From positions 1 to 20,513 of the IMG/VR virus record IMGVR_UViG_3300022602_000508: DNA of 20,513 bases. One strand, written 5' to 3'. The stretch comes from a virus. Position 1 is the stretch's first letter. Every line of letters starts with the position of its first letter. The position numbers and the translations under genes were made by a program. Under the pieces are notes generated by a model. The model did no database searches. It had not been told where the DNA came from and saw nothing but the letters and a program-made list of their open reading frames with translations. Positions 2,907 to 17,424 of this stretch are shown in pieces.

Positions 2907-5900
2907 ATGGCAGTCAGTCAGCAACAACGTCAAAAGCAGCTGTTTGCTGCCGAAGACTGGCAGGTCATCTACCAGGCTTTTACCCAGGTAAACTTCAACG
3001 CCTATGATTTCCCTACCATACGAACTGCGATGGTAGAGTACATACGTCTAAACTACCCAGAAGATTTCAACGACTGGACAGAGAGCAGCGAGTTCGTGGC
3101 TATCATTGACCTGCTGGCCTATCTTGGTCAAAGCTTGGCATTCAGGATGGATCTCAATACTCGTGAGAACTTCCTCGATACGGCCCAACGTCGTGACAGC
3201 ATATTCCGCCTGGCTCGCATGCTCAACTATCAGCCACAGCGCAGCATACCCAGTGCAGGCATACTTAAAGTATCGCAGATAGTCAGCAACCAAGACATCT
3301 ATGATGCCAACGGTCTCAACCTCAAGAATACTCCTATCAACTGGAACGATCAGAACAATCCAGATTGGCAGGAACAGTTTACTTTGGTATTAAACGCATC
3401 ATTGAACAGCACCAATTATTTTGGCAATCCTGCTAAGAGCGGAGTAGTTAACAACATACCAACTGAACTATATGCCCTAAACAACACAGCTATACCTACC
3501 AGCGTGGTGCCATTCACTGCTGTTGTTGGTGGCAACAACATGAACTTTGAGCTGGCAAATCCAGATTTCAACGGAGCGACAGGCGGTAATGCCACGGTGC
3601 TCGGTACCACTGGCTATTTCTTTGAACGGGATCCAAATCCAATCAACAGTTGGTACATCATCTATCAGAACGACGGCAATGGTTATGACAGTGCTAACAC
3701 TGGATTCTTCTTGTTTTTCAAACAGGGTACCATGGGCTTTGCAGATTATCAGTTAGATTTACCGATCGCGAATAGATTGATAGACGTCAATGTCAGCGGC
3801 ATCAACCAAACTGACGTTTGGGTACAAAACATCAACACTGCAGGCTTGGTGACTGCCAATTGGACCCAGGTACCTAACGTCAATGGTTTCAACGTAATAT
3901 ACAATAGTGTCAACAACAATGTGCGCAATATCTACAGCGTCATTACCAGAGATTTCAACGGTGCTGATCAGATAAGCCTGCGTTTTGCAGATGGTAACTT
4001 TGGCACGGTACCGGTTGGTCTGTTGCGTGTATGGTACAGGGTGAGCAACGGGCTGCAGTATCAGATACGCCCAACAGACCTCACCAATCTCAAGTTCAAT
4101 TTCAGTTACAATGACAATCTGTTTAATACCTATAGCGTGGCATTCAACACCAATCTGCAATATACTGTGGCCAACAGCCAGACCACACAGAGCAATCAGC
4201 AGATACAGTTGGCAGCTGAACAGGTTTACTATACCCAAGATCGCATGGTAAATGGCGAGGACTACAACCTATTCCCGCTGCAGAGCAGCCAGGCTTTGAA
4301 AGTCAAAGCTCTGAATAGAACCTACAGTGGTCAGAGCCGTTATCTGGACATCAATGATCCCACTGGCACCTATCAGAACATAAACGTGTTTGGCACTGAC
4401 GGAATACTGTACGAAGAATATGATATAAATGCGCAAGAAGTGGTCATTAACGTGGGTACACCCAATGCTGTGTACGTGATTGACAACATCCAACCTATGA
4501 TAGATGCCAGCAGCAATGCCACCTTTGCCCAAGCAGCGTTAGAATTGCAGAACTTTTTCTACAAAAACTTCCCAAGGTACACCGCAACAGGTGCATATTG
4601 GAACCTTGTTTCGGCCAACACTGGCAGCAGCACCGGCAGCATTGACGTGGGAGGCTTTGCGCAAAGGCTAGGACAATATGCCACGGCAGGCAGCGGTGAA
4701 GCCTATATTGCTTCGGGCAGTTTGTTGCAATTCAAGACTCTTAGCAATGTGACAACATGGACCAGCGTGATCAGTGTGGTTGGAGATGGAACTGGTATCA
4801 GTAACACAGGAATCACACCAAGTGGTCTTGGTGCAGTCACGCTTAGCACAGTGATTGACGATGTCAGCACGCTGCAAAGTATATGTGCGCCCTGGGAAAC
4901 CACACTAACTTCATCTGAACAGACAGCTATAGCAGCTGCCATGGACTACAAGCAGACTTTTGGAATAGGTTATTCGCCATTGTATCAGACTTGGTATGTG
5001 ATAACCAATCCCAATCTCAGCACAGGTCCTGAATTTAACCTACAGAATGCACAAGATACATCTGGTACCAATGCAGATGCCAGCTGGTTGCTCAAGATAA
5101 TCTACAATACTTCAAGTTGGATAATACAAAGCCGTGCTCAACGTTATGTTTTTGAAAGCGTTGATCAAGTGCGTTTCTATTTCAGCAACAGCGAAAAGAC
5201 CATCGACAGCAGCACAGGTAAAGTTTTGTATGATTCAGTAACGGTACTGGGAGTCAATCCAGCTCCGCTGCCACCAGCTCCGGCACCAGCTCTGGGACAG
5301 GACTATCTGTGGCAGATCTATGGACAGGAGATATATCCAGATGGTTATGCTGATCCGACCAGTGTGCGAGTGACCTTCCAAAGCACACAGGATCCAACCT
5401 TGCCTGACAATCCAGATGAGTTTGTGACCATAGTCAATCCAGATGTCACGCCCCCGAGCAAGTATGTGTTCTGGGTGAAATATACCAGCAGCGAAGGCTA
5501 TCAGTACTACCAACCAATAGACATACCAAACTATCGCATATACAGCGCTCCCAGTGCCGTTCCTTCGCCTCCCAATGGCAATTGGCATCAAGGTGAAGTG
5601 GCCTATGTGATCAGTACCAGCGCTTTCCTGCAATACAGCAATGGATCATTGACCGATGTTACTGCAAACTACAAGGTTAGGCTGGGACGCAACAACATCA
5701 GCTATCTATGGCAGCACTATGCTGCATATGATCAACGCATCAATCCTGCCATAATGAACATCATAGATATCTACATATTGACAGCTACCTACAATGATAA
5801 TCTAAGAAATTGGATAGCCATAGGTGGAAGCGCAGATACCGAGCCACAACCGCCAACCATCAGTGATCTCAATGCCACGTTCTCTTATTTTGAACAGTTC

Positions 5901-6317
5901 AAGATGATGACCGATCAGATAGTGTGGCATCCAGTCACCTATCAGCTGCTGTTTGGTGCACAAGCACAACCAGAATATCAAGTGTTGTTCAAAGTTGTAA
6001 AGGTACCTGGTACCAGTAACAGTGATAACGAAGTCAAGAGCTTGGTTAAACAACAGATAGACACCTATTTCTCGTTGGCAAACTGGGATTTTGGGCAGAA
6101 CTTCTATTTCACAGAAATGGCCACATTCATACAGATGAACCTAGCAACCATAGTGGCAACCATAGTGATGGTGCCGACCAGTGGCAGTGCCAAGTTTGGA
6201 GACCTGTTTGAGATCATAGCCAATCCTGATGAGATATTCATCAGCTGTGCTACTGTACAGAACATAGTGATAGTTGGTAGCCTCACTGAGGCACAGCTGG
6301 GGATAAACAATGGTTGA
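2907..6317 (+). CDS. Baseplate wedge protein, gp6-like, greatly enlarged
   Basis: The 1136-aa product starts at ATG 2907 behind a good ribosome binding site (TGAGGA, 6 nt spacing). Its first 110 residues are the gp6 signature: a helix, DFPTIRTAMVEYIR, then a WTESSEF...LAYLGQSLAFRMDLNTRENFL block and an LARMLNYQPQR turn. RFADGNFG (359-366) followed by VWYRVSNG is the baseplate-J-like core strand region. T4 gp6 has about 660 residues. The extra length here is spread over the middle, including a Pro/Ala-rich hinge (about 785-796) followed by an LWQIYGQEIYPDGY segment. The last 170 residues (helical FSYFEQFKMMTDQIVWHPVTYQL, then a ferredoxin-like strand pattern) resemble the gp6 C-terminal domain that forms the inner baseplate ring. 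Its stop overlaps the next start by 8 nt. Confidence 0.88.
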   Translation: MAVSQQQRQKQLFAAEDWQVIYQAFTQVNFNAYDFPTIRTAMVEYIRLNYPEDFNDWTESSEFVAIIDLLAYLGQSLAFRMDLNTRENFLDTAQRRDSIFRLARMLNYQPQRSIPSAGILKVSQIVSNQDIYDANGLNLKNTPINWNDQNNPDWQEQFTLVLNASLNSTNYFGNPAKSGVVNNIPTELYALNNTAIPTSVVPFTAVVGGNNMNFELANPDFNGATGGNATVLGTTGYFFERDPNPINSWYIIYQNDGNGYDSANTGFFLFFKQGTMGFADYQLDLPIANRLIDVNVSGINQTDVWVQNINTAGLVTANWTQVPNVNGFNVIYNSVNNNVRNIYSVITRDFNGADQISLRFADGNFGTVPVGLLRVWYRVSNGLQYQIRPTDLTNLKFNFSYNDNLFNTYSVAFNTNLQYTVANSQTTQSNQQIQLAAEQVYYTQDRMVNGEDYNLFPLQSSQALKVKALNRTYSGQSRYLDINDPTGTYQNINVFGTDGILYEEYDINAQEVVINVGTPNAVYVIDNIQPMIDASSNATFAQAALELQNFFYKNFPRYTATGAYWNLVSANTGSSTGSIDVGGFAQRLGQYATAGSGEAYIASGSLLQFKTLSNVTTWTSVISVVGDGTGISNTGITPSGLGAVTLSTVIDDVSTLQSICAPWETTLTSSEQTAIAAAMDYKQTFGIGYSPLYQTWYVITNPNLSTGPEFNLQNAQDTSGTNADASWLLKIIYNTSSWIIQSRAQRYVFESVDQVRFYFSNSEKTIDSSTGKVLYDSVTVLGVNPAPLPPAPAPALGQDYLWQIYGQEIYPDGYADPTSVRVTFQSTQDPTLPDNPDEFVTIVNPDVTPPSKYVFWVKYTSSEGYQYYQPIDIPNYRIYSAPSAVPSPPNGNWHQGEVAYVISTSAFLQYSNGSLTDVTANYKVRLGRNNISYLWQHYAAYDQRINPAIMNIIDIYILTATYNDNLRNWIAIGGSADTEPQPPTISDLNATFSYFEQFKMMTDQIVWHPVTYQLLFGAQAQPEYQVLFKVVKVPGTSNSDNEVKSLVKQQIDTYFSLANWDFGQNFYFTEMATFIQMNLATIVATIVMVPTSGSAKFGDLFEIIANPDEIFISCATVQNIVIVGSLTEAQLGINNG

Positions 6318-9300
6318 AAAGCGTCGCGTAATATCTCTGCTACCTGGTGTTAACCAAACAGAGACTTTGACCAAATTTTTTGCAGCTACAGTTGATCACA
6401 TGTTCCAGCCAGAGAGCGTGGAATTCCTCAGTGGATACATTGGTAGCAAGCCTGTGTATTACAATCCAAAAACTGATTATTACATTGGTGAACCAACCAA
6501 AAGCAGGAACGATTATCAGCTACCTGTGACTGCGCTAAGCAAGAACACCTACAGCGGTTCAGTAACCAATATCATGTTCTATCATGATTATGTAAACAGT
6601 TTGCAATTCCAAGGTGCGGTGGTAACCAATCAAAGCAGGCTATTTGAACAAGAATACTACAGCTGGTCACCTCCAATTGATCTGGACAAACTCATTAACT
6701 ATACCAAATATTACTGGGTGCCCAGCGGACCAAGCCCAATATTGCTGTTGTCTAATACCAATCTATTGGTTGATGCAGTAGGCAAATCTCAATTCACTTA
6801 TTCTGGTACCTATCAGCTATCAAGCACTGGAGAGATAATCACTGGTGACTTGGTTTTCAGTACCGGATTGGTCATCACTGCGACCAATGACGCTACCAGT
6901 TCTATCAATAACGTACCTTACATCATCAACAATGTTGGTCGAGCCATACAGCTGCTGGATCTAGTTGGTTATCGCGATCCTAACTGGGACAATCGCGGAT
7001 GGGACACACAGGCCTGGGACGGCGATGCTACTATCTATCAAAAAGACTATATGACTCTGGCTAGATGTCCAGATCCCAGCAATCAATGGAGTGCTAACAA
7101 TCGTTGGTTCCACATAGATGTTTTGATGCAAAGCGGCACTGGTTCTGTTCCTTCCTATCAGACCAGGGCTCAGCGACCAATCATTGAATTCAGCGCCAAT
7201 CTGCAGTTGTATAACAGCGGATTCAGGGGTCGTGCCAATGCCTCATTTGTTTTATCAAATGTGCCCGATGTATTCGCTGCTATAGTTGGTCAATCCAGAT
7301 ATTCAATCAACGGCATTGAACTGATAGATGGTCAGACCATACTGGTCACTGGTGACAGCGACCCCTTGGTTAACAACAGGGTGTACCAAGTTGGAGGACT
7401 GTCAACCCTTGGAGTGATCACTCTCACAGAAGTTGGAGGACCGCCAGTTTACGGTGATGCTATTTTGGTTGAATTTGGTACTCTAATGGTGAACAGCGTG
7501 TCATACACTGCCAACGTGCAGTATTGGTATAACGGCGCTGCATGGATCGAGGCTCAGCAGAAAGTGTTGTATGCTGCACCGTTGTTCAATCTCTATGATT
7601 ATGACGGCAATTATCTGGCAGATCCCAGTGTCTATCCCGGCAGCACGTTTACAGGCAATGCCATATTCACCTATCAAACTGACATTTATGCAAGCATAGA
7701 CAGTGAGTTAGGCTTGGCACCATTGCTGGATCAGTTCGGAGATTATGTGTTTAACAATACCATAGTCAGCCAGACCTATACATATCAGTACAACACTTCT
7801 ACTACCACGGCAATACAGGGCTTTGCCTATTACAGAGACAACTCTACACCGGTGCCTGAATTCAATAACCAATGGTATAAATCACCTCAACCTAGCAGGC
7901 AGTATATTGTGAATGATTTCACAGTAAACATACCCACTTACAGCTTCACCATAGACCAAGTACCTGATGATAATCTTGGGCTCTTTCCCAGCATCTATGT
8001 GACTATTATACAAGATCAATCAGGTGTGTTGCTGACCAATGGTGTTGACTACACAGTATCCAACAACATAGTAAGCCTTAAAACACCTGCTACAGCCGGT
8101 CAGCGTGTGTTGATACGCAGCTGGAGCAGAGGAGCTCCAATACATCTCACTGGTTATTATGAGTTACCGCCCAATCTCACAGCCAATGCAAACAATGAGC
8201 AGGTAGTTACCATCAGCCAAAGCCAATTTGCCCAACAATTTGAGAGCATCATATTGAACCAGCCGGGCCTGATAGGATCACCGCTGGGCAATAACAATTA
8301 TCGCGATACTCCACAGATATTGGGCCTTGGACAGTTCATTCTTCAGCACAAAGCTCCTTTGATCAAACCAATGGTTCTGAGCAGCGGCAACATCACCGTT
8401 GGCATCAACACCGTGATGAACAACACAGAGCCCATGCAAGCCATGCAGTTTGCGCAGAACCAATACACGCGATTTTACAACAGGTTCATACAAACACTGT
8501 TCACTTTGAGCGCCAATGGTTATACTGCAGCGCAGAGTCCACAGACTTGGGTGAGCACTGCATTAACGCAGATCAATCTTGGTAAGAACCCTACCAGTCC
8601 TTGGGCCAACAGCGGCATAGATGGTCCTCAGGCAGGCTACACATATCTGCGCAGCACTGCTCCTACCTATGTGCCGCCAACTGGTACACGATTGGGCGTG
8701 AGCAAGGCATACATGCCAATGGTATATTATGAACCATTGACCGTGGGTTACAACTTGGTCATACAGTGTCACGATGGTGCACGTTTCGTGATGGCCAAGG
8801 ATGATCTGCCGCTAGGCACTATAGAATACGGATTAACCAGCACCAGCGATCCGCTGTTGTTAACCAGTCCCGTGGCCGCAGCATGGCTGCAGTGGGAATT
8901 GGATCTTTTCAACAACATGCCTGATGCCTACAGCAATCCTCAAGCTATGATGGCCATGGACATCGTGGCATACACGCCCGGCAAGTGGAGAAGCAGTGAT
9001 TACACACTGGCAGAATACCTTCAGGTCACTTATCCAATGTTTGATCGGTGGGTAATCAGCAATCAAGTTGATTATCGTGCCAACACCACTTATGATCCTG
9101 CCGATCCGTTCACTTGGAATTATTCAGCTTTGCGTGATAAGAATGGTCAATCAGTGCCAGGCTATTGGCAGGGCATATATCGTTGGTTCTATGACACAGA
9201 TCGTCCTCACTTGGCACCATGGGAAATGCTGGGCTTCAGCCAACAGCCCCCATGGTGGACTGAAGAATACGGCCCTGCACCATATACCAGCGGCAATACC

Positions 9301-12300
9301 TACATGTGGAATGATCTCGCTGCTGGATTGATACGACAAGGTCCGCGAGCGGGAATATACCTGCCAGGTGTGCGTCCTGGTTTGTTAAGTTGTATACCTG
9401 TAGACGCACAGGGTAGCCTGTTACCTCCAATATTGGCTGGCACAGTGGTAGGACAGCCTAGCCAAGCACAGGCTTCTGCTGCATGGGTATTTGGCGACGG
9501 TAGTCCAATAGAATCAGTATGGATCTACAGTAACGACTATAGCTTTGTAATTGCGCAATATAGCTATCTGATGAAACCTGCGCAATTCATAGAATACAAC
9601 TGGGACACTTTGCGCCAGCTCACAGTGTTTCCGCAGCAAGAGACCAGCCAGAGCATTTACATTGACACCTATAACAGGCGTTCGAACGCTGATCTCTATG
9701 TGCATCGAGAGAATCCCAGTGCCATTGGCGGCAACATCAATGTTCCAAACGAAAGCACTCTAACCTACTATGGTAGCGGTGGTATACAGCACTGGATAAC
9801 AGAATATGTGGTGAGCCAAAACCTTAATGTCACGCAATATTTTGGCAGCATAGTTAGAGGCACAACTGCACAGTTGGCCCATCAAGCTGGCGGATTCGTG
9901 GCCAGTAACCTCTATCTCACAGCAGACAGCTTTGGTCAAATAGGCTACACCAGCCAGATAATACCAAGTGAAAATGTGCACACTTATCTGTACAAAAGCG
10001 CTAGCATACGAGAAGTTTTTTACAGTGGGGCGATCATCACGCAGGTCAATGGCGGATGGCGAGTGGTAGGCTATGATAGCATAAACCAATTCTTCCTTAT
10101 CATTCCCAGCAATCTCAATGGTGCTAAGACTACTGTGGTAGTGGGGTCTGACAAAGTATTTTGGTACAAGGTAGGAGTAGATGCAGCGCAGGAAGTGCCA
10201 TACGGTACTGTGTTCACTACCAAACAAGCAGTATTTGATTTCTTGGTAAGCCTGCAAAGATACCAGGAATACCAAGGATTCGTGTTTGATCAGTTGAACG
10301 TTGAAAATAACACGACACTGGACTGGGTTCAAAGTGGAAAAGAGTTCCTATTTTGGAGCCAGGGCAACTGGGCAAATGGCAATTTCATTGCACTTAGCCC
10401 GCTAGCACTTAATGTGAAGTATCATCAAACCTTTGGCAGCGTGCAGTTTGTCAATGCTATCATTGGCGGCACCTATCCGATACTAGACAAGATAGGAGCT
10501 AGGATAGACGGTGTGAATCTCACGGTCCTTAGATATGATGACACCATCACGGTAACTCCAACTGGGACACAAAATATCTACGGTATGAGATTGTTTGCCA
10601 ACACCATAGAAAGCGTGTTGGTCATTAACAACTTAACCAGCTTCAACGATACGGTATACGATCCACTCTACAATCTTTACCAACCACGCCTCAAGCTGTT
10701 TGCCTATAGGACCAATGATTGGGATGGACGTGTTGATGCCCCTGGTTATTTCCTCTATCAGAGTGGTACTGATAACCAATGGACTTTGGTCACCAATTTT
10801 GAAAAGACAGCCAGCGATTTCACCAAATATTACAACATAGATCAGCCAAAGAATTACACCAGCATTGATCCGATTACAGGCAATCTAGTACTGAACGAAA
10901 CCACCTTAGCTGCAGTGGATGTACAGGTCATCAGTGACATGGCCAAACATCAGATTGGTTATCAACATCGACCATATCTGGCCAATCTACTGTTGGAAGA
11001 AAGCACAGAGTTCCAATTCTATCAGGGTTTCATTAAACAGAAGGGAACTCAAAGTTCATTTAATGCGCTGCTGCGCAATGCAGCTATATCACCTCCGCCC
11101 AGTCTCTATGAATATTATGAAGAATATGCATTGAGAACTGCAAGGTTTGGCAGCACGGCTCTGAACACTAGCATTGATTTCATCATTCCTCAGAACCAAT
11201 ATCGCAATGATCCTCAACAGATACAAGTTTTTGGGGTGCAGAGCACCGATAAAGAATTCAGCAGTGTTATTACTTTGATACCCAATGATCCGTTGATATT
11301 GGTACCACCAATCAGTTACAGCAGCGAGAATGATCCGCTTTTCCCCTTAATGAACACTACTGTGCCAAATTTCAACAGCGATCTGCCCACAGCAGGATAT
11401 GTGCTGGTCGGTGAAACCACTTTTACCATTGCCAATGCTACAGTGTTAAGCACGTTCTGGGAAAGCCAAAATGCTGCTGGAAATCCCATAGTCAACGGCG
11501 ACACAGTTTGGCAGTTCATCACAGAGAAACAGACCTGGGATGTTTGGAAGTTCAGCACAGCAAACGTCAACATCATCAACACCACACCCAGCATCTCCAC
11601 AGGACAGCCGACTGTGATCAACTGCAGCGGCAATGTTGGATTAAAATCAGGCGATGTGATCGTGTTAGATGGAATCAGCAATGTCAGTGCTCTGCAAGGA
11701 ACGTTCACTGTAGGTAACATAGTTGGTGGCGGAAACAGCTTCACAGTGGGCGTGAACACCTTCACAATTGGTGCTGGCGGTAACGTCACAGCTTATAAGT
11801 CCACTCGCTTTGCTACTAACTATGAGCGAGATCTCTATCCGCCATTGAACGGTTGGCAAGAAGGTGACATTGCCTATGTGGATAAAACCGGCTATGGTAT
11901 CAATGGTTGGACGGTATATCTGCGCTTAAATCACCAGTGGATGCCGCAGCGCAGCCAAACCTATGATGTCAATGCTAACCTAATGCTGCAAGGCAAGCTC
12001 TACAGCCAGAGCCAAGGCACTGTGTATGCATATCTGGAATATTATGATCCTGCCAAGGGTTTCATCCCCAGTGAAGCACGCAAGAATCTGGATCGCATCA
12101 GCATCTATGATCCTGCCAGCTATAACTCGGGTAACGTGGAAATATATCCGTTGAATGCCACACGAGCATGGGGACCCGAGCATGTGGGCGAGACCTGGTG
12201 GAACCTATCCAGCGTGAGATACTATGATTACGAGATCAGTGACAACAGCTATCGTTGGCAGCATTGGGGACAGATAGCGCCAGGTACCTCAGTGGATGTG

Positions 12301-15300
12301 TATGAATGGGTAGAAAGTCCTGTAAGCCCCGACATGTGGGCTACCTATGTGGCTAATGGCACCAGTTTTGCACAATATGGCTACAATTACACTCCAACTG
12401 GATTCGTTTTGAACAGCAATGATCCTGCATACACCACGCTGACTGAATATACCACATCGGCCAATGTGCCAATCACACGCTACTATTTCTGGGTAGGCAA
12501 TGCAACCACACTGCCGTTGCCAACCGGACGAACCATTAGCACACTGCAGATCAGAGATATCATATCCAATCCTACCGGTTATGGGGTGCGATGGTATGCA
12601 GCCATAGACAGCCGCACGATTTTGGTCAGCGGTGTGGGAAGGTATCTCAGCGGTACCGACACTGTGTTAAGCTTGCTGTACACGCACGAAGCCAACAATC
12701 AGATTGATTACAAGCAATATGATCTGCTGCGACCAAACGATCCTGACAGCCTGCCCAGTAATTTCTTCTGGAACAAATTGCAGGATAGCCTCACAGGCAA
12801 AGATGGCGAAGGTCAGAACGTGCCTGATCCCTACCTCAGCGAAATCATGCGATACGGCACTCTGATACGTCCGCGCCAAAGCTGGTTCAAGTATCGCCCC
12901 ATAGCAGCCGAAACCTATGTAGCCGAAGCCAACAAACTACTGGGGACCATATTGTTAGTTCCAGACATCAATCGCAGTAATTGGGTGGATTATTTCTATA
13001 CAGCCGAAGCGGCTCCTAGTGCAGACTACACGGTTGGTACCATCAGCAGCAGGAACGCACTGGGTGGTAACATACCCAATCTCAGCACTGTGTTGGTGCT
13101 AGGCGGTGCTGATACCAACAATCTCTGGAAGCTGTATCAATATCAGTTCAATGGTGGAAACTATCTGTGGACAGAGCTTGCTGTGCAGGCCTACAACACA
13201 CCAAACTATTGGTACTATGTAGATTGGTATCTGCCAGACAGCGGAGTGACCAGCCTTACCATACCAAACTACGTGGTACAGAACGACAACGACAGAGCAC
13301 AATATGCAGGAGTGAATGGCACCATTGTCAAGGTTTTGAACCGAGGTGATGGCTATTGGGCTCTTTATAAATGGGTCGGTAGCACTTTAGGCACATGGGC
13401 CACTGTGGGTTATCAAAACGGCACCATACAGATCAGCACAGGTGTGTACGATGGCAGCATCAACACCATGCTGTTTGGCACCACACCGTTTGACAGCACC
13501 GGCTTCGACATCTTCCCGCATGTGGAATTTGCCAGCATGATACAAGGTTTGGTAAAGGTGATATTTGCTAACCCAAATCCTGCCATACCTGGCGAGAGCG
13601 TGTACCTAAACCAACTGTTCTTCACTATGATCAACTACGTGTTAGTGGAGCAGGGTTTCGTGGATTGGTTGTTCAAGACCAGCTTCATATACCTTCGCGG
13701 ATTCAATCTTCCTCTGAGCACCAGCCAGCTCTATCAACCTGATTACAGCGATGCTCTGCTAGCCTATCTCAATGAAGTTAAACCTTATCATGCCAAGGTT
13801 CGTGCCTTTGTGACTCAGCGCACATGGCAGGACAACGCTGTGGTTTACACCACAGACTTTGACAATGAAGCAGCTGGTACCACCAGCAATCTAGCTTGGC
13901 AGCAGAACTATCTCACAAATCCTGAATTGATCAGGACTCTGAAGATCAGCCTGTTGTTTGATCGGGTGGCCAGCAACAGCGTGGGTTGGGCCAGCAAGAC
14001 ATGGAGCGTGCTTGGCTGGGAGTTTGAAAACACTACATACGGAGAACCAACCTGGGGTGCGTTTACTCGCATCAGAGATTTCTATGCGCCCACGGCAGAC
14101 ATGATACGCAAGGATGATCCTAACCTCATTCCAAACAGCGACTATCGCGGCATCATAATGGATGCACTGGGATTCCGTTTCGGACCAGGTTGGGACTTCA
14201 TGCCCTGGGATTCACCCACAGGATTTGATGCTGATCAAGCTTCATTCACCAACTATCTTGACATCATAGTCCAAGGCGGACTGGCACCAGTCTACGACAA
14301 GTTCTATGGTACTGGTATCAAGCGCACATTCCAGCTCAGCAACATACCTCAGAGCCCACAAACACCGGTGGTCTGGGCCAACGGTATGCTGCAACAGTAT
14401 GGAGTTGATTGGATCATACCAAATTGGGTAACTGATCTGCTGTTGGCAGCTGGCGGATCTGGCTATGCTGTTGGCGACCAACTGCATCTGGACATCACAC
14501 CGGCTGTGTCGCCAACTGTGTTTACAGTAACTGAAGTTGACACCAACGGGGCTATATTGGCTTGGACGCTGGACAGCAGTGGTTCCTATGATCTGTTCCC
14601 CAATGGCCCAGTTGGAGTGGTATACCCAGAGTACTCCACGGGCATTGGGGTTGGAGCACAGTTCCAGCCAACCTGGGGCGGCAGCACTTTGGTATTCTAC
14701 ACAGCACCTCTAAGCAACGCAGCTCCAAACGTGTTTGTGTTGTACACTGGCACCACTTTCGTGGCAGCGCCGACCGGCCCCATTGATATCATCAATGACG
14801 GTAACAGGTTTGCACAACCCTATGTGGACCAAGATCATCCTGAAGAGCTTTATAAGTTTAGGACTCCCAGCAGCGTGAGGTTGGATACCTACCAGCAAGC
14901 AGCAGGAGGAGCACCAGTCATCATCATGCAGATCTATCAGCTCGATGGCATGCGTGATCATTTCCCACTGGGTATCGCGCCCATGGATCAAGGCAGTGTT
15001 ATCGCTCAGATTGATGGCAAGATGCTCACATACGGATTGACCAATGATTACGTGATAAACTGGACCACCAATCAGATGGTGTTTTTGGTGCCTCCCATTG
15101 GCAAGACTCTGCAGATATTGACCATTGCCACAGGTGGAAGTGGCATAGGCATGCATGTCATAGTACCAGTGGCCTCTGGCAATGGATATCAGCCAGGTGA
15201 CATTGTCACTCTAGCAGGTGGCCAAGATGTGAATTATCGCGCAGCAAGAGTGCAGGTTGTGAGCGTCCAGGCTGTGAACGTGGCAATACAAACTGGAGGA

Positions 15301-17424
15301 TTTGGTTATAGCGTTGGTGACACCTTGATATTGTCAAATGATTATCAGAGTTCTGAGACCAATCCTGTACAACTCACGGTGACCAACGTCACAGTTAGCC
15401 ATGGCACCATCACAGCAGTAAAGCTGGTACAACCTGGACAATACACATTCACGCCAGAGATCTACAGCTATGAGACTTCTGGCATGGGATCGGGCGCTAA
15501 CATCACAGTGAACTGGGGAATTGACACCATCACTGTGGCAAGTCCGGGCGAGTATAGCATATATCCAACTGCACCAATCGCTCAGGCAAGCACAAGCGGC
15601 AGTGGCACAGGTGCTACATTCCAAAGCCTGTATGACCATCAGGTAAGCCAAAATCAATTCACATCCAACGGAATCACCAACGACTTCATGATTTCTAATG
15701 CTGTGCCAAACAACGATGCCAATCTGTTGTTGATAACTCAGAATGGCCAAATCCTAAACAGCAGCAATGCCGACATCACAGTAAACGGCAGGATAGTTAC
15801 CATCACACCTATCCCTCCGGACAACAGCATAATCACTATCTCGCTGTTTGAAAGCAGTAACTTCAGCATAGTGCATGATCAAGAGATACAGATGCAGACC
15901 AGTGTGTATGTATACTCATTGGCATTCCCTCCATTCAGCACGCAACCTCCATATCTCAGCACCACGTTGGCTAGAAATGGTAACTATCTCAACGGACCTA
16001 TCATGAGCGTGTACAGGGCAGATGGGAGCACAAACAGCTTTTCTAGCCAATACATGCCGGCGAATCCAGCTTATCTTTTGGTATATAACGGCAATTATCT
16101 CAGCACCTATCTCACCGATTATACCATCAGTGGCAACGACGTCCTGTTCTTTACACCACCAGTGGCTGGTGTCATCGTGTCGTTGGTTGTAATTGATCCT
16201 AATTTTGGATATGGTTACCAGATTGCAAACAATCAGCTGCAATTTGAAATTTCACCTCCGCTAGGTTTTGGTATCGGAGCATGGAATAACTATTATGGCT
16301 GGAGCCCCAGCGAAGCTGTGCAGCCAGAAACTGGCCAGACTGTGAAAGTGATCACATATAGCCAAGATGTCAGCTATAAGTTCCGCACTCAGACGCTGCC
16401 TGGACCAGCATATCCAAACGTGCCTGGCAACACAGCGGGTACATTCGTGCTGATAGATGCACCATACAATGACAGCACGCTTATGGTCTGGCTTAACAGC
16501 AACATGCAAACACTGTTGTATGATTACACATTGACAACTGTGTCTGCAATACCTGGTTATGCAATCACAGGATGGAATGTGTACGGGTGGAACACAGAAT
16601 ATGGCGGAGACAAAGCAGTTGTGTTTGCATCAAACATCGCTGTACAACCCAGTGATATCGTCACAGCTCAATATATGCATGCACTGCCTCAGCAGCCTGA
16701 CATAGCTTGGCGCACCATAATGAGCGACACTGCTGTGACCAGCACTGTGATCAGTGATGCAAACAAGACCGTGACTCTGTCCGAAGTCACGGTGTATAGC
16801 GAAAGCATAGAAGTGGCTAACTTGGCAGTGCTGGATCAACCAACTCTCACGCTGCCCGGTACTATTTGGATAGGTGACGAGCGCATAGACTATTGGATGG
16901 TTACCCCCGCTCCTACCAGCAGCTGGCCTGATCGCGGTTTCTTGCAGCAGCTGATCAGAGGCACATTTAACACTCCGGTTGGTAATGTAAGCACACTGTA
17001 TGATACTATCTTCTATGACGGCGACGGTCAAACCACTCTGTTTGCCACTGCTTCTGGCACGAGGCCAGCAGGTGGCAATGTGGTGGTCAGCATAGGCACA
17101 AACGTGCAGGTAGACACGGATATCAATGCAGAAGTAGGTACGTATACCATAGTAGAAAATCCAATAGGAAAACCAGCTGGCACATACGTAGGATTTGTGC
17201 AACCGCCGGTGGTTGGATGGCGCAACATCAGGCTGGCAAGTCCTCGCCTCGAAGTTCAGATCACCAGCCCCATCAGCCATCCAGTTGGTAGCACGGTCAT
17301 AGCAGCAGGTACTAATGAAACAATACCCGGCGGATATAATTGGATATCTGCACCAAACGGGTTACAGTATAGCACAAGTAGCATGGCACAGTACATGCTT
17401 GATCACCCCGGAACCAGGACATAA
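6310..17424 (+). CDS. Giant virion protein (3704 aa), baseplate/tail-fibre type, in gp7 position
   Basis: One uninterrupted frame, roughly 0.4 MDa, starts at an ATG inside the last codons of the gp6-like gene (ATGGTTGA overlap), so it is probably translationally coupled. Recognisable segments in order: an N-terminal adaptor (residues 1-145: LLPGVNQTETLTKFF, LSGYIGSKP.YYNP, LFEQEYYSW, NYTKYYWVPSG); WD-rich NWDNRGWDTQAWD (about 225-240); YQHRPYLANLLLEES with FYQGFIKQKGT (about 1550-1590); VDVYEWV (1995-2001); MRYGTLIRPRQSWF (2180-2193); KPYHAKVRAFV (2491-2501); alternating beta modules (about 2669-3410); and a C-terminal WIGDERIDYW...LIRGTFNTP segment. I recall these motifs from giant uncharacterised structural proteins of marine T4-like phages, but cannot verify it. 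By position it may replace gp7 and possibly gp8/gp10. The exact role is unknown. There is no transmembrane segment and no catalytic motif I recognise. Confidence 0.75.
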   Translation: MVEKRRVISLLPGVNQTETLTKFFAATVDHMFQPESVEFLSGYIGSKPVYYNPKTDYYIGEPTKSRNDYQLPVTALSKNTYSGSVTNIMFYHDYVNSLQFQGAVVTNQSRLFEQEYYSWSPPIDLDKLINYTKYYWVPSGPSPILLLSNTNLLVDAVGKSQFTYSGTYQLSSTGEIITGDLVFSTGLVITATNDATSSINNVPYIINNVGRAIQLLDLVGYRDPNWDNRGWDTQAWDGDATIYQKDYMTLARCPDPSNQWSANNRWFHIDVLMQSGTGSVPSYQTRAQRPIIEFSANLQLYNSGFRGRANASFVLSNVPDVFAAIVGQSRYSINGIELIDGQTILVTGDSDPLVNNRVYQVGGLSTLGVITLTEVGGPPVYGDAILVEFGTLMVNSVSYTANVQYWYNGAAWIEAQQKVLYAAPLFNLYDYDGNYLADPSVYPGSTFTGNAIFTYQTDIYASIDSELGLAPLLDQFGDYVFNNTIVSQTYTYQYNTSTTTAIQGFAYYRDNSTPVPEFNNQWYKSPQPSRQYIVNDFTVNIPTYSFTIDQVPDDNLGLFPSIYVTIIQDQSGVLLTNGVDYTVSNNIVSLKTPATAGQRVLIRSWSRGAPIHLTGYYELPPNLTANANNEQVVTISQSQFAQQFESIILNQPGLIGSPLGNNNYRDTPQILGLGQFILQHKAPLIKPMVLSSGNITVGINTVMNNTEPMQAMQFAQNQYTRFYNRFIQTLFTLSANGYTAAQSPQTWVSTALTQINLGKNPTSPWANSGIDGPQAGYTYLRSTAPTYVPPTGTRLGVSKAYMPMVYYEPLTVGYNLVIQCHDGARFVMAKDDLPLGTIEYGLTSTSDPLLLTSPVAAAWLQWELDLFNNMPDAYSNPQAMMAMDIVAYTPGKWRSSDYTLAEYLQVTYPMFDRWVISNQVDYRANTTYDPADPFTWNYSALRDKNGQSVPGYWQGIYRWFYDTDRPHLAPWEMLGFSQQPPWWTEEYGPAPYTSGNTYMWNDLAAGLIRQGPRAGIYLPGVRPGLLSCIPVDAQGSLLPPILAGTVVGQPSQAQASAAWVFGDGSPIESVWIYSNDYSFVIAQYSYLMKPAQFIEYNWDTLRQLTVFPQQETSQSIYIDTYNRRSNADLYVHRENPSAIGGNINVPNESTLTYYGSGGIQHWITEYVVSQNLNVTQYFGSIVRGTTAQLAHQAGGFVASNLYLTADSFGQIGYTSQIIPSENVHTYLYKSASIREVFYSGAIITQVNGGWRVVGYDSINQFFLIIPSNLNGAKTTVVVGSDKVFWYKVGVDAAQEVPYGTVFTTKQAVFDFLVSLQRYQEYQGFVFDQLNVENNTTLDWVQSGKEFLFWSQGNWANGNFIALSPLALNVKYHQTFGSVQFVNAIIGGTYPILDKIGARIDGVNLTVLRYDDTITVTPTGTQNIYGMRLFANTIESVLVINNLTSFNDTVYDPLYNLYQPRLKLFAYRTNDWDGRVDAPGYFLYQSGTDNQWTLVTNFEKTASDFTKYYNIDQPKNYTSIDPITGNLVLNETTLAAVDVQVISDMAKHQIGYQHRPYLANLLLEESTEFQFYQGFIKQKGTQSSFNALLRNAAISPPPSLYEYYEEYALRTARFGSTALNTSIDFIIPQNQYRNDPQQIQVFGVQSTDKEFSSVITLIPNDPLILVPPISYSSENDPLFPLMNTTVPNFNSDLPTAGYVLVGETTFTIANATVLSTFWESQNAAGNPIVNGDTVWQFITEKQTWDVWKFSTANVNIINTTPSISTGQPTVINCSGNVGLKSGDVIVLDGISNVSALQGTFTVGNIVGGGNSFTVGVNTFTIGAGGNVTAYKSTRFATNYERDLYPPLNGWQEGDIAYVDKTGYGINGWTVYLRLNHQWMPQRSQTYDVNANLMLQGKLYSQSQGTVYAYLEYYDPAKGFIPSEARKNLDRISIYDPASYNSGNVEIYPLNATRAWGPEHVGETWWNLSSVRYYDYEISDNSYRWQHWGQIAPGTSVDVYEWVESPVSPDMWATYVANGTSFAQYGYNYTPTGFVLNSNDPAYTTLTEYTTSANVPITRYYFWVGNATTLPLPTGRTISTLQIRDIISNPTGYGVRWYAAIDSRTILVSGVGRYLSGTDTVLSLLYTHEANNQIDYKQYDLLRPNDPDSLPSNFFWNKLQDSLTGKDGEGQNVPDPYLSEIMRYGTLIRPRQSWFKYRPIAAETYVAEANKLLGTILLVPDINRSNWVDYFYTAEAAPSADYTVGTISSRNALGGNIPNLSTVLVLGGADTNNLWKLYQYQFNGGNYLWTELAVQAYNTPNYWYYVDWYLPDSGVTSLTIPNYVVQNDNDRAQYAGVNGTIVKVLNRGDGYWALYKWVGSTLGTWATVGYQNGTIQISTGVYDGSINTMLFGTTPFDSTGFDIFPHVEFASMIQGLVKVIFANPNPAIPGESVYLNQLFFTMINYVLVEQGFVDWLFKTSFIYLRGFNLPLSTSQLYQPDYSDALLAYLNEVKPYHAKVRAFVTQRTWQDNAVVYTTDFDNEAAGTTSNLAWQQNYLTNPELIRTLKISLLFDRVASNSVGWASKTWSVLGWEFENTTYGEPTWGAFTRIRDFYAPTADMIRKDDPNLIPNSDYRGIIMDALGFRFGPGWDFMPWDSPTGFDADQASFTNYLDIIVQGGLAPVYDKFYGTGIKRTFQLSNIPQSPQTPVVWANGMLQQYGVDWIIPNWVTDLLLAAGGSGYAVGDQLHLDITPAVSPTVFTVTEVDTNGAILAWTLDSSGSYDLFPNGPVGVVYPEYSTGIGVGAQFQPTWGGSTLVFYTAPLSNAAPNVFVLYTGTTFVAAPTGPIDIINDGNRFAQPYVDQDHPEELYKFRTPSSVRLDTYQQAAGGAPVIIMQIYQLDGMRDHFPLGIAPMDQGSVIAQIDGKMLTYGLTNDYVINWTTNQMVFLVPPIGKTLQILTIATGGSGIGMHVIVPVASGNGYQPGDIVTLAGGQDVNYRAARVQVVSVQAVNVAIQTGGFGYSVGDTLILSNDYQSSETNPVQLTVTNVTVSHGTITAVKLVQPGQYTFTPEIYSYETSGMGSGANITVNWGIDTITVASPGEYSIYPTAPIAQASTSGSGTGATFQSLYDHQVSQNQFTSNGITNDFMISNAVPNNDANLLLITQNGQILNSSNADITVNGRIVTITPIPPDNSIITISLFESSNFSIVHDQEIQMQTSVYVYSLAFPPFSTQPPYLSTTLARNGNYLNGPIMSVYRADGSTNSFSSQYMPANPAYLLVYNGNYLSTYLTDYTISGNDVLFFTPPVAGVIVSLVVIDPNFGYGYQIANNQLQFEISPPLGFGIGAWNNYYGWSPSEAVQPETGQTVKVITYSQDVSYKFRTQTLPGPAYPNVPGNTAGTFVLIDAPYNDSTLMVWLNSNMQTLLYDYTLTTVSAIPGYAITGWNVYGWNTEYGGDKAVVFASNIAVQPSDIVTAQYMHALPQQPDIAWRTIMSDTAVTSTVISDANKTVTLSEVTVYSESIEVANLAVLDQPTLTLPGTIWIGDERIDYWMVTPAPTSSWPDRGFLQQLIRGTFNTPVGNVSTLYDTIFYDGDGQTTLFATASGTRPAGGNVVVSIGTNVQVDTDINAEVGTYTIVENPIGKPAGTYVGFVQPPVVGWRNIRLASPRLEVQITSPISHPVGSTVIAAGTNETIPGGYNWISAPNGLQYSTSSMAQYMLDHPGTRT
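14314..16539 (+). repeat. Degenerate tandem beta modules of type 'F.l.n.p ... NG....DYti ... pP..g'
   Basis: Five diverged copies were read in the last quarter of the giant protein: 14314-14430, 14998-15123, 15667-15855, 16024-16197 and 16429-16539. A lone earlier copy sits at 7990-8130. Each has a strand ending in a small turn (ANGML, IDGKM, QNGQI, YNGNY, LNSNM, TNG), then DYT/DWI/DYV/ADI, then usually a strand ending in pP..g. Such modules are common in tail-fibre head-binding regions. The repeats are protein-level; there is no exact DNA repetition. Confidence 0.65.
14428..15630 (+). repeat. GYxxGD ... GxY beta repeats in the giant protein
   Basis: A second module type is interleaved with the first. 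GGSGYAVGD...SGSYDLFP...GVGAQFQPTW spans 14428-14678. GNGYQPGD starts near 15178, GFGYSVGD near 15298, PGQYTFTP with MGSGANITVNW follows, and PGEYSIYP with GSGTGATFQ ends near 15630. The consensus G.GY..GD, then strand, then G.Y...P, then GsGa.f is a recurring element of phage tail proteins. Its function is unknown, but probably a rigid spacer or glycan-facing surface. Confidence 0.65.

Follow-up and report, generated by a model that had tools for sequence, protein, structure and literature searches.

The window, the whole 20,513-nt stretch of DNA analysed here, contains genes for a gp5-like spike with lysozyme (P0003; 3–2423), gp25 (2496–2894), a gp6-like baseplate wedge protein (2907–6317, + strand; PHROG 10646, E=0; PHROG 219, E=4e-18), a giant virion/baseplate protein of 3704 aa belonging to the PHROG 10938 family (6310–17424, + strand), a 198-aa protein, and two small fibre-like or unassigned proteins, in that order. 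The gp6-like protein has 1136 aa, compared with 660 aa for gp6 of T4. Consistent with the earlier note, which described an unbroken 11.1-kb frame of 3704 codons filling more than half of the window, the giant gene is a single open reading frame with an ATG start and no internal stop, and takes up 54% of the window. The encoded protein has a computed mass of ~410 kDa and a computed pI of 4.6. A stop-free run of 3704 codons is expected by chance with a probability of ~10^-84 at the composition of the window, so a chance reading frame was rejected. An assembly artefact was rejected as well, because intact homologues are present in independent contigs and isolates.

The giant gene overlaps the gp6 gene by 8 nt (ATGGTTGA). 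Specifically, at the junction (...ACAATGGTTGAAAAG) the ATG of the giant gene occupies positions 6310–6312 and the TGA of gp6 positions 6315–6317. The overlap is kept exactly in close relatives of the window. The coupling to gp6 proposed from the sequence thus holds, the upstream gene being gp6-like by its PHROG matches.

The 198-aa protein (P0005; 17572–18168, + strand; PHROG 11259, E=1.5e-70) follows the giant gene at a distance of at most 1.5 kb in 48 of the 57 eligible loci. Its PA5oct counterpart has been detected by mass spectrometry (MS), and the protein is probably a co-expressed virion protein. In the group of 121Q, CBB and XaC1, the gene lies ~7.5 kb away from the giant gene. The C-terminal part of P0006 (18201–19121 of the window) is common to tail-fibre and unassigned virion PHROGs, and P0007 (19123–20049) matches no PHROG or Pfam family. 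At the other end of the window, the gp5-like protein carries an inserted GDSL/SGNH-hydrolase-like stretch at aa 213–302 (Pfam E 0.0013, below cut-off), which retains GGND, has GDD in place of GDS, and is possibly inactive.

A family of giant virion proteins in the slot after gp6

The family profile of PHROG 10938 (3324 aa), whose annotation is "virion structural protein", aligns with the giant in three stretches at E=0 and 1266.6 bits, the best stretch covering aa 597–2230. By tblastn, relatives with ~22–34% identity are found in ~60 phage records, including RaK2, CBB, 121Q, PA5oct, Atu_ph07 and other sequenced jumbo phages; nearly all of these genomes are ~285–490 kb long. In the 12 annotated reference records, the giant is one gene of 3138–4555 aa, and the gene immediately before it carries a gp6 annotation or has the size and place of gp6. 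More generally, a gp6-sized reading frame (~1,000–1,400 aa) abuts the giant gene in nearly all relatives with sufficient upstream sequence; in Salicola phage SCTP-2 (L007; giant at 6624–15914) the gene in the place of gp6 encodes 3096 aa and is unassigned. RaK2 gp465, CBB gp236, 121Q gp582, PA5oct gp355, Atu_ph07 gp180 and the proteins of Phosso and SCTP-2 are homologous to the giant throughout the core, in many cases with homology reaching the C-terminus. The position after gp6 and the size class are the same in these relatives, whereas the C-terminal third of the window protein has diverged and carries other inserted modules. At the DNA level, phage records contain no near match to the window.

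At least 593 candidate stretches in IMG/VR, recruited with the aa 900–1500 block, encode a relative of the giant. Among the best 80 of these at least 593 stretches together with the close set, complete giant reading frames are present in 60 loci and range from 2242 to 4913 aa; most family members have 3,000–4,900 aa. Four loci (L080, L093, L100 and L113; G007–G010) contain relatives with open frames of 6194–6311 aa, unusually long among phage proteins. Given these numbers, the window protein is an average member, ordinary in size, of a widespread and abundant jumbo-phage family that has a PHROG entry and no named functional role. A 17-kb IMG/VR fragment filed under another record name (L015) codes for aa 1–2717 of the giant without a single difference.

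Members of the family are present in virions. CBB_236, which is the orthologue of the window protein by locus tag, was found in CBB virions with 21 unique peptides by MS (PMC5259590), and PA5oct gp355 carries an ESI-MS/MS flag in its record. In phAPEC6, gp245 (382 kDa), which adjoins the 'baseplate wedge' protein gp244, was detected with 17 peptides by MS (PMC7247149); we infer from gene order and mass that it is an orthologue of the giant. The description of the gene as structural fits these virion data from relatives. The earlier note had further taken the architecture to be one to which no function had been assigned. As an unrecognised architecture it does not stand, since ~60 sequenced jumbo phages carry a member of this PHROG family and virion MS has seen it in several; the other part stands, in that no assignment of function for PHROG 10938 giants was found in the literature searched.

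A conserved core and a variable C-terminus with fibre-type modules

An alignment of 13 reference members was used to divide the protein. The core, aa 1 to ~2600, is aligned in all 13 with a few weaker stretches; the C-terminal third drifts fast and gives no tblastn match in phage records at E<1e-5. AlphaFold2, run with 62 family members, gave a confident model for aa 1–1110 (pLDDT 87.7, pTM 0.83) and a fair one for aa 1560–2700 (pLDDT 78.1), poor past aa 2510 (aa 2510–2700). Fold searches with these two regions revealed no clear fold beyond two accessory modules. A BFVD search returned the giant's own family and fibres, and PDB sequence searches with the whole giant, its N-terminal part, and the A1 and A5 profiles returned no relevant match. 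All features described below lie on the + strand.

The N-terminus (aa 1–110; 6310–6639) contains a putative helix with the family-conserved signature LLPGxxQTxTLxxFFxAT, modelled with low confidence in the monomer (pLDDT 50–80 over aa 1–60). These first ~110 aa match nothing known, and the adaptor N-terminus that had been suggested for the protein was not recovered. The most conserved part of the core is aa 900–1500 (9007–10809), with the PWEMLGF and WxGRxxAPG blocks. The two blocks singled out in the earlier note, VDVYEWV (aa 1995–2001; 12292–12312) and RPRQSWF (aa 2187–2193; 12868–12888), are indeed conserved in the family. A further conserved block, EQxxxDWxFKTS ... EVKPYxxKxR, is located at aa 2400–2520 (13507–13869) and resides in a separate gene in L076 and L071. 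In these two loci the giant is naturally split: into 2780 and 1301 aa in L076 (7451–19732), and in L071 (2855–17742) into halves of 2608 aa and of 780 aa or more, with an extra 1416-aa reading frame between them.

Two accessory modules are predicted in the core. The first is a beta-sandwich at aa 532–618 (7903–8163) whose modelled fold resembles the N-terminus of T7 gp17, CBA120 TSP4 and, more weakly, domain 2 of T4 gp10. In VIA searches it aligns with 7rfv with Z of 6.2 and rmsd of 1.2 (63 residues aligned), with 7ey9 with Z of 6.0 and rmsd of 2.0 (69 aligned), with several T7-like fibres at Z of 5–6, and with T4 gp10 in 5iv5 at Z of 3.4. A CBM_X2 match at the same module is below cut-off. 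The second is a beta-barrel at aa 1744–1832 (11539–11805), predicted to be E1-FCCH-like or endosialidase-barrel-like, with Z of 10.4 to UBA6 (rmsd 1.6, 75 aligned) and Z of 8.7 to the phi92 endosialidase (rmsd 2.3, 78 aligned). An E1-enzyme function was rejected, as this small barrel is also common to phage endosialidases.

In profile comparisons within the protein, copies of the aa 532–618 module recur in the C-terminus. The copy at aa 2872–2945 (14923–15144) matches the first module with an hhalign probability of 58 and the copy at aa 3228–3300 (15991–16209) with 94; the latter matches the first module with 97 (E 2e-10), and the copy at aa 3110–3190 (15637–15879) does so with 92. Other pairs of modules inside the giant reach probabilities of up to 96, and weaker traces are present at aa 2665–2712 and aa 3345–3460. 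PF03906 (Phage_T7_tail) falls on aa 3228–3300 in the same register, with E of 0.12, below cut-off. Close to the C-terminus, an IGxExIxY...RG module at aa 3485–3577 (16762–17040) is also found in a cyanophage gp7-slot protein. The C-terminus is thus modular and fibre-like, as had been read from the sequence, by internal profile matches, with the fold seen for one copy (aa 532–618); the tail-fibre N-terminal module fold of the T7 gp17/TSP4 type is predicted for this copy only. In T7 gp17, the XD region of CBA120 TSP4 and T4 gp10 domain 2, the fold is like that of aa 532–618 and, by profile, that of at least three C-terminal repeats; there the T7 gp17/TSP4-type module belongs to a trimeric fibre, whereas here it is embedded in a giant wedge-slot protein. 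An apparent sheath homology in the C-terminus through PF22639 (gp18 domain I) was rejected: the match is below cut-off and lies over a repeated GxGYxxGD sequence.

Relationship to gp7 and the make-up of the wedge

T4 gp7 has 1032 aa, in agreement with the ~1030 residues quoted in the earlier note. It resembles the giant in its gene position right after gp6, in the overlap with gp6, and possibly in a KG[T/I] segment. It differs in size and has no full-length similarity to the giant, and Pfam gp7 domain V is not found above cut-off in the reference jumbo genomes. Specifically, full-length profile comparison of the giant with T4-type gp7 gave an hhalign probability of 0.3, and profile comparisons with T4 gp6, gp8, gp9, gp10 and gp11 were all negative. 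All Pfam models run on the giant and its segments detected no gp7 domain, no gp8 (PF09215), and no N- or C-terminal domain of gp10. No sequence match to gp7, gp8 or gp10, the proteins against which the earlier note had proposed segment-wise structure prediction, was found in the giant; by fold, a gp10 domain-2-like module was seen at Z of 3.4. Wedge proteins with gp7 folds are missing from the Foldseek and VIA hits over the core (aa 1–1110 and 1560–2700), an absence that is weak. The models PF09684 (P2-type tail protein I) and TIGR02242 have no match in the giant either; the latter weakly matches the cyanophage S-PM2 protein at its KGT motif.

One sequence link between the giant and gp7 is suggestive and modestly significant. 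The segment GFIKQKGTQSSFNALLRN (aa 1573–1592; 11026–11085, + strand), predicted with low confidence to form helices at aa 1564–1578 and aa 1580–1587, is in register with the KG[T/I] segment of gp7 in profile comparison. A GF[IM]xxKGT-type sequence is conserved here across the giant family, and FYxxKG[T/I]xxSxxFxF is the motif of the short cyanophage core that is homologous to T4 gp7. When the giant was cut into 146 sliding segments and these were compared with the cyanophage gp7 core, those containing KG[T/I] scored best, at 18.5 and in exact register, the next unrelated segment scoring 14.6. Column shuffles reached this score in 0 of 200 cases for the cyanophage core and in 1 of 200 for the T4 plus cyanophage core, counts that are somewhat flattering because the motif was picked by eye before the test. 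The match spans ~20 residues, with E of 0.004–0.05 in direct comparison, and it scores no better than other parts of the giant when T4 gp7 is the only reference. The link appears to be new and is modest; the family itself is known, with no assigned function.

A giant is also found in the gp7 slot of cyanophage S-PM2. S-PM2p084 (3048 aa; L138, 1073–10219) is like the window protein in lying directly after gp6, in its giant size, and in having a KGT motif and an IGxE...RG module; unlike it, the rest of the protein has no detectable homology to the giant and the genome has a separate annotated gp8 gene. The S-PM2 core is homologous to T4 gp7 (hhalign probability 92.7, E 4e-7) and corresponds to aa ~693–788 of T4 gp7, with a profile that already includes T4 rows. 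Despite this short homologous part, the S-PM2 protein is annotated as a virion structural protein only.

Based mainly on position, gp6 coupling and detection of relatives in virions, with the KG[T/I] segment as suggestive evidence, the giant is probably what jumbo phages have in place of a gp7-type baseplate wedge protein, greatly enlarged and with built-in fibre-like modules. Translation coupled to gp6 would favour joint production of the two wedge proteins. In the wedge core, the gp6 dimer would be contacted by the KG[T/I] segment and the helices next to it, and the rest of the giant's core would spread outward and form the baseplate periphery. The inserted and C-terminal modules may be docking points for fibres, including the 198-aa protein and the products of the fibre genes, or may stiffen the rim. 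The giant may in this way cover structural ground of T4 gp8 and gp10, without homology to either.

The earlier note had gone further, suggesting that the protein may combine roles of wedge and peripheral baseplate proteins. In a true merger, one chain would have taken over the gp7, gp8 and gp10 functions, and the wedge would consist of gp6, gp25, gp53 and the giant; we regard this as unlikely. A single large gene does lie between gp6 and the fibre genes, and the aa 532–618 module is weakly like T4 gp10 domain 2 (Z 3.4), but a gp10-like fold is common to many unrelated fibres, and similarity to gp8 is nowhere to be found in the giant. The window being a 20.5-kb fragment, the absence of separate genes was examined with the Pfam models for gp8, the gp9/10 N-terminus and gp7 domain V on 12 reference jumbo genomes and two long relatives of the window. 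None gave a match above cut-off, and gp53 was detected in 9 of the 12 reference genomes, in 3 of these above cut-off; BW3TFN, a gp8-like Pfam family, has no match in the jumbo genomes either. This absence is a weak test: in the S-PM2 control, the annotated gp8 barely registers with its model (21 bits, below cut-off), and that for gp9/10 gives no match. Consistent with the Pfam results, counterparts of gp5, gp25, gp6 and gp53 are recognisable in jumbo phages and that of gp7 is not, and the T4-core matches for CBB in the part of the source consulted list gp6, gp25 and gp53 and none of gp7–gp12 (PMC5259590). However, PA5oct encodes a separate protein with the gp10 C-terminal domain (gp358, E 1e-23), three genes downstream of its giant, which puts a gp10-type part outside the giant in this phage at least. 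The claim that gp7, gp8 and gp10 are missing as separate genes thus holds to the extent that Pfam fails to detect them in nearly all 12 reference genomes, and gives way in PA5oct; the merger itself finds no sequence match of the giant to any of the three.

Equally improbable in our judgement is a role at the baseplate periphery or as a fibre anchor, with the gp7 slot occupied by coincidence and another protein pairing with gp6. The folds that can be identified are those of fibre-type modules and the full-length comparison with gp7 is negative, as such a protein would have it, but three features speak against it: the gene strictly adjoins and overlaps gp6, the KG[T/I] segment is conserved, and so, to a high degree, is the 2,600-aa core.

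As an enlarged gp7-type protein, the giant would place a family named only 'virion structural protein' in databases within the machine that triggers tail contraction. The gp7-slot assignment gives these very large proteins a role that can be tested, and could account for the failure of gp7 searches in jumbo phages. More speculatively, and with little confidence on our part, the jumbo lineage might build its outer wedge round one giant chain replacing T4 gp7, gp8 and gp10, which gains and loses fibre modules (~2,600 to 6,300 aa) and has come apart again into separate genes in certain lineages. The largely unrelated-looking giant in the cyanophage gp7 slot suggests that, beyond the T4 group, proteins of this slot may often be oversized.
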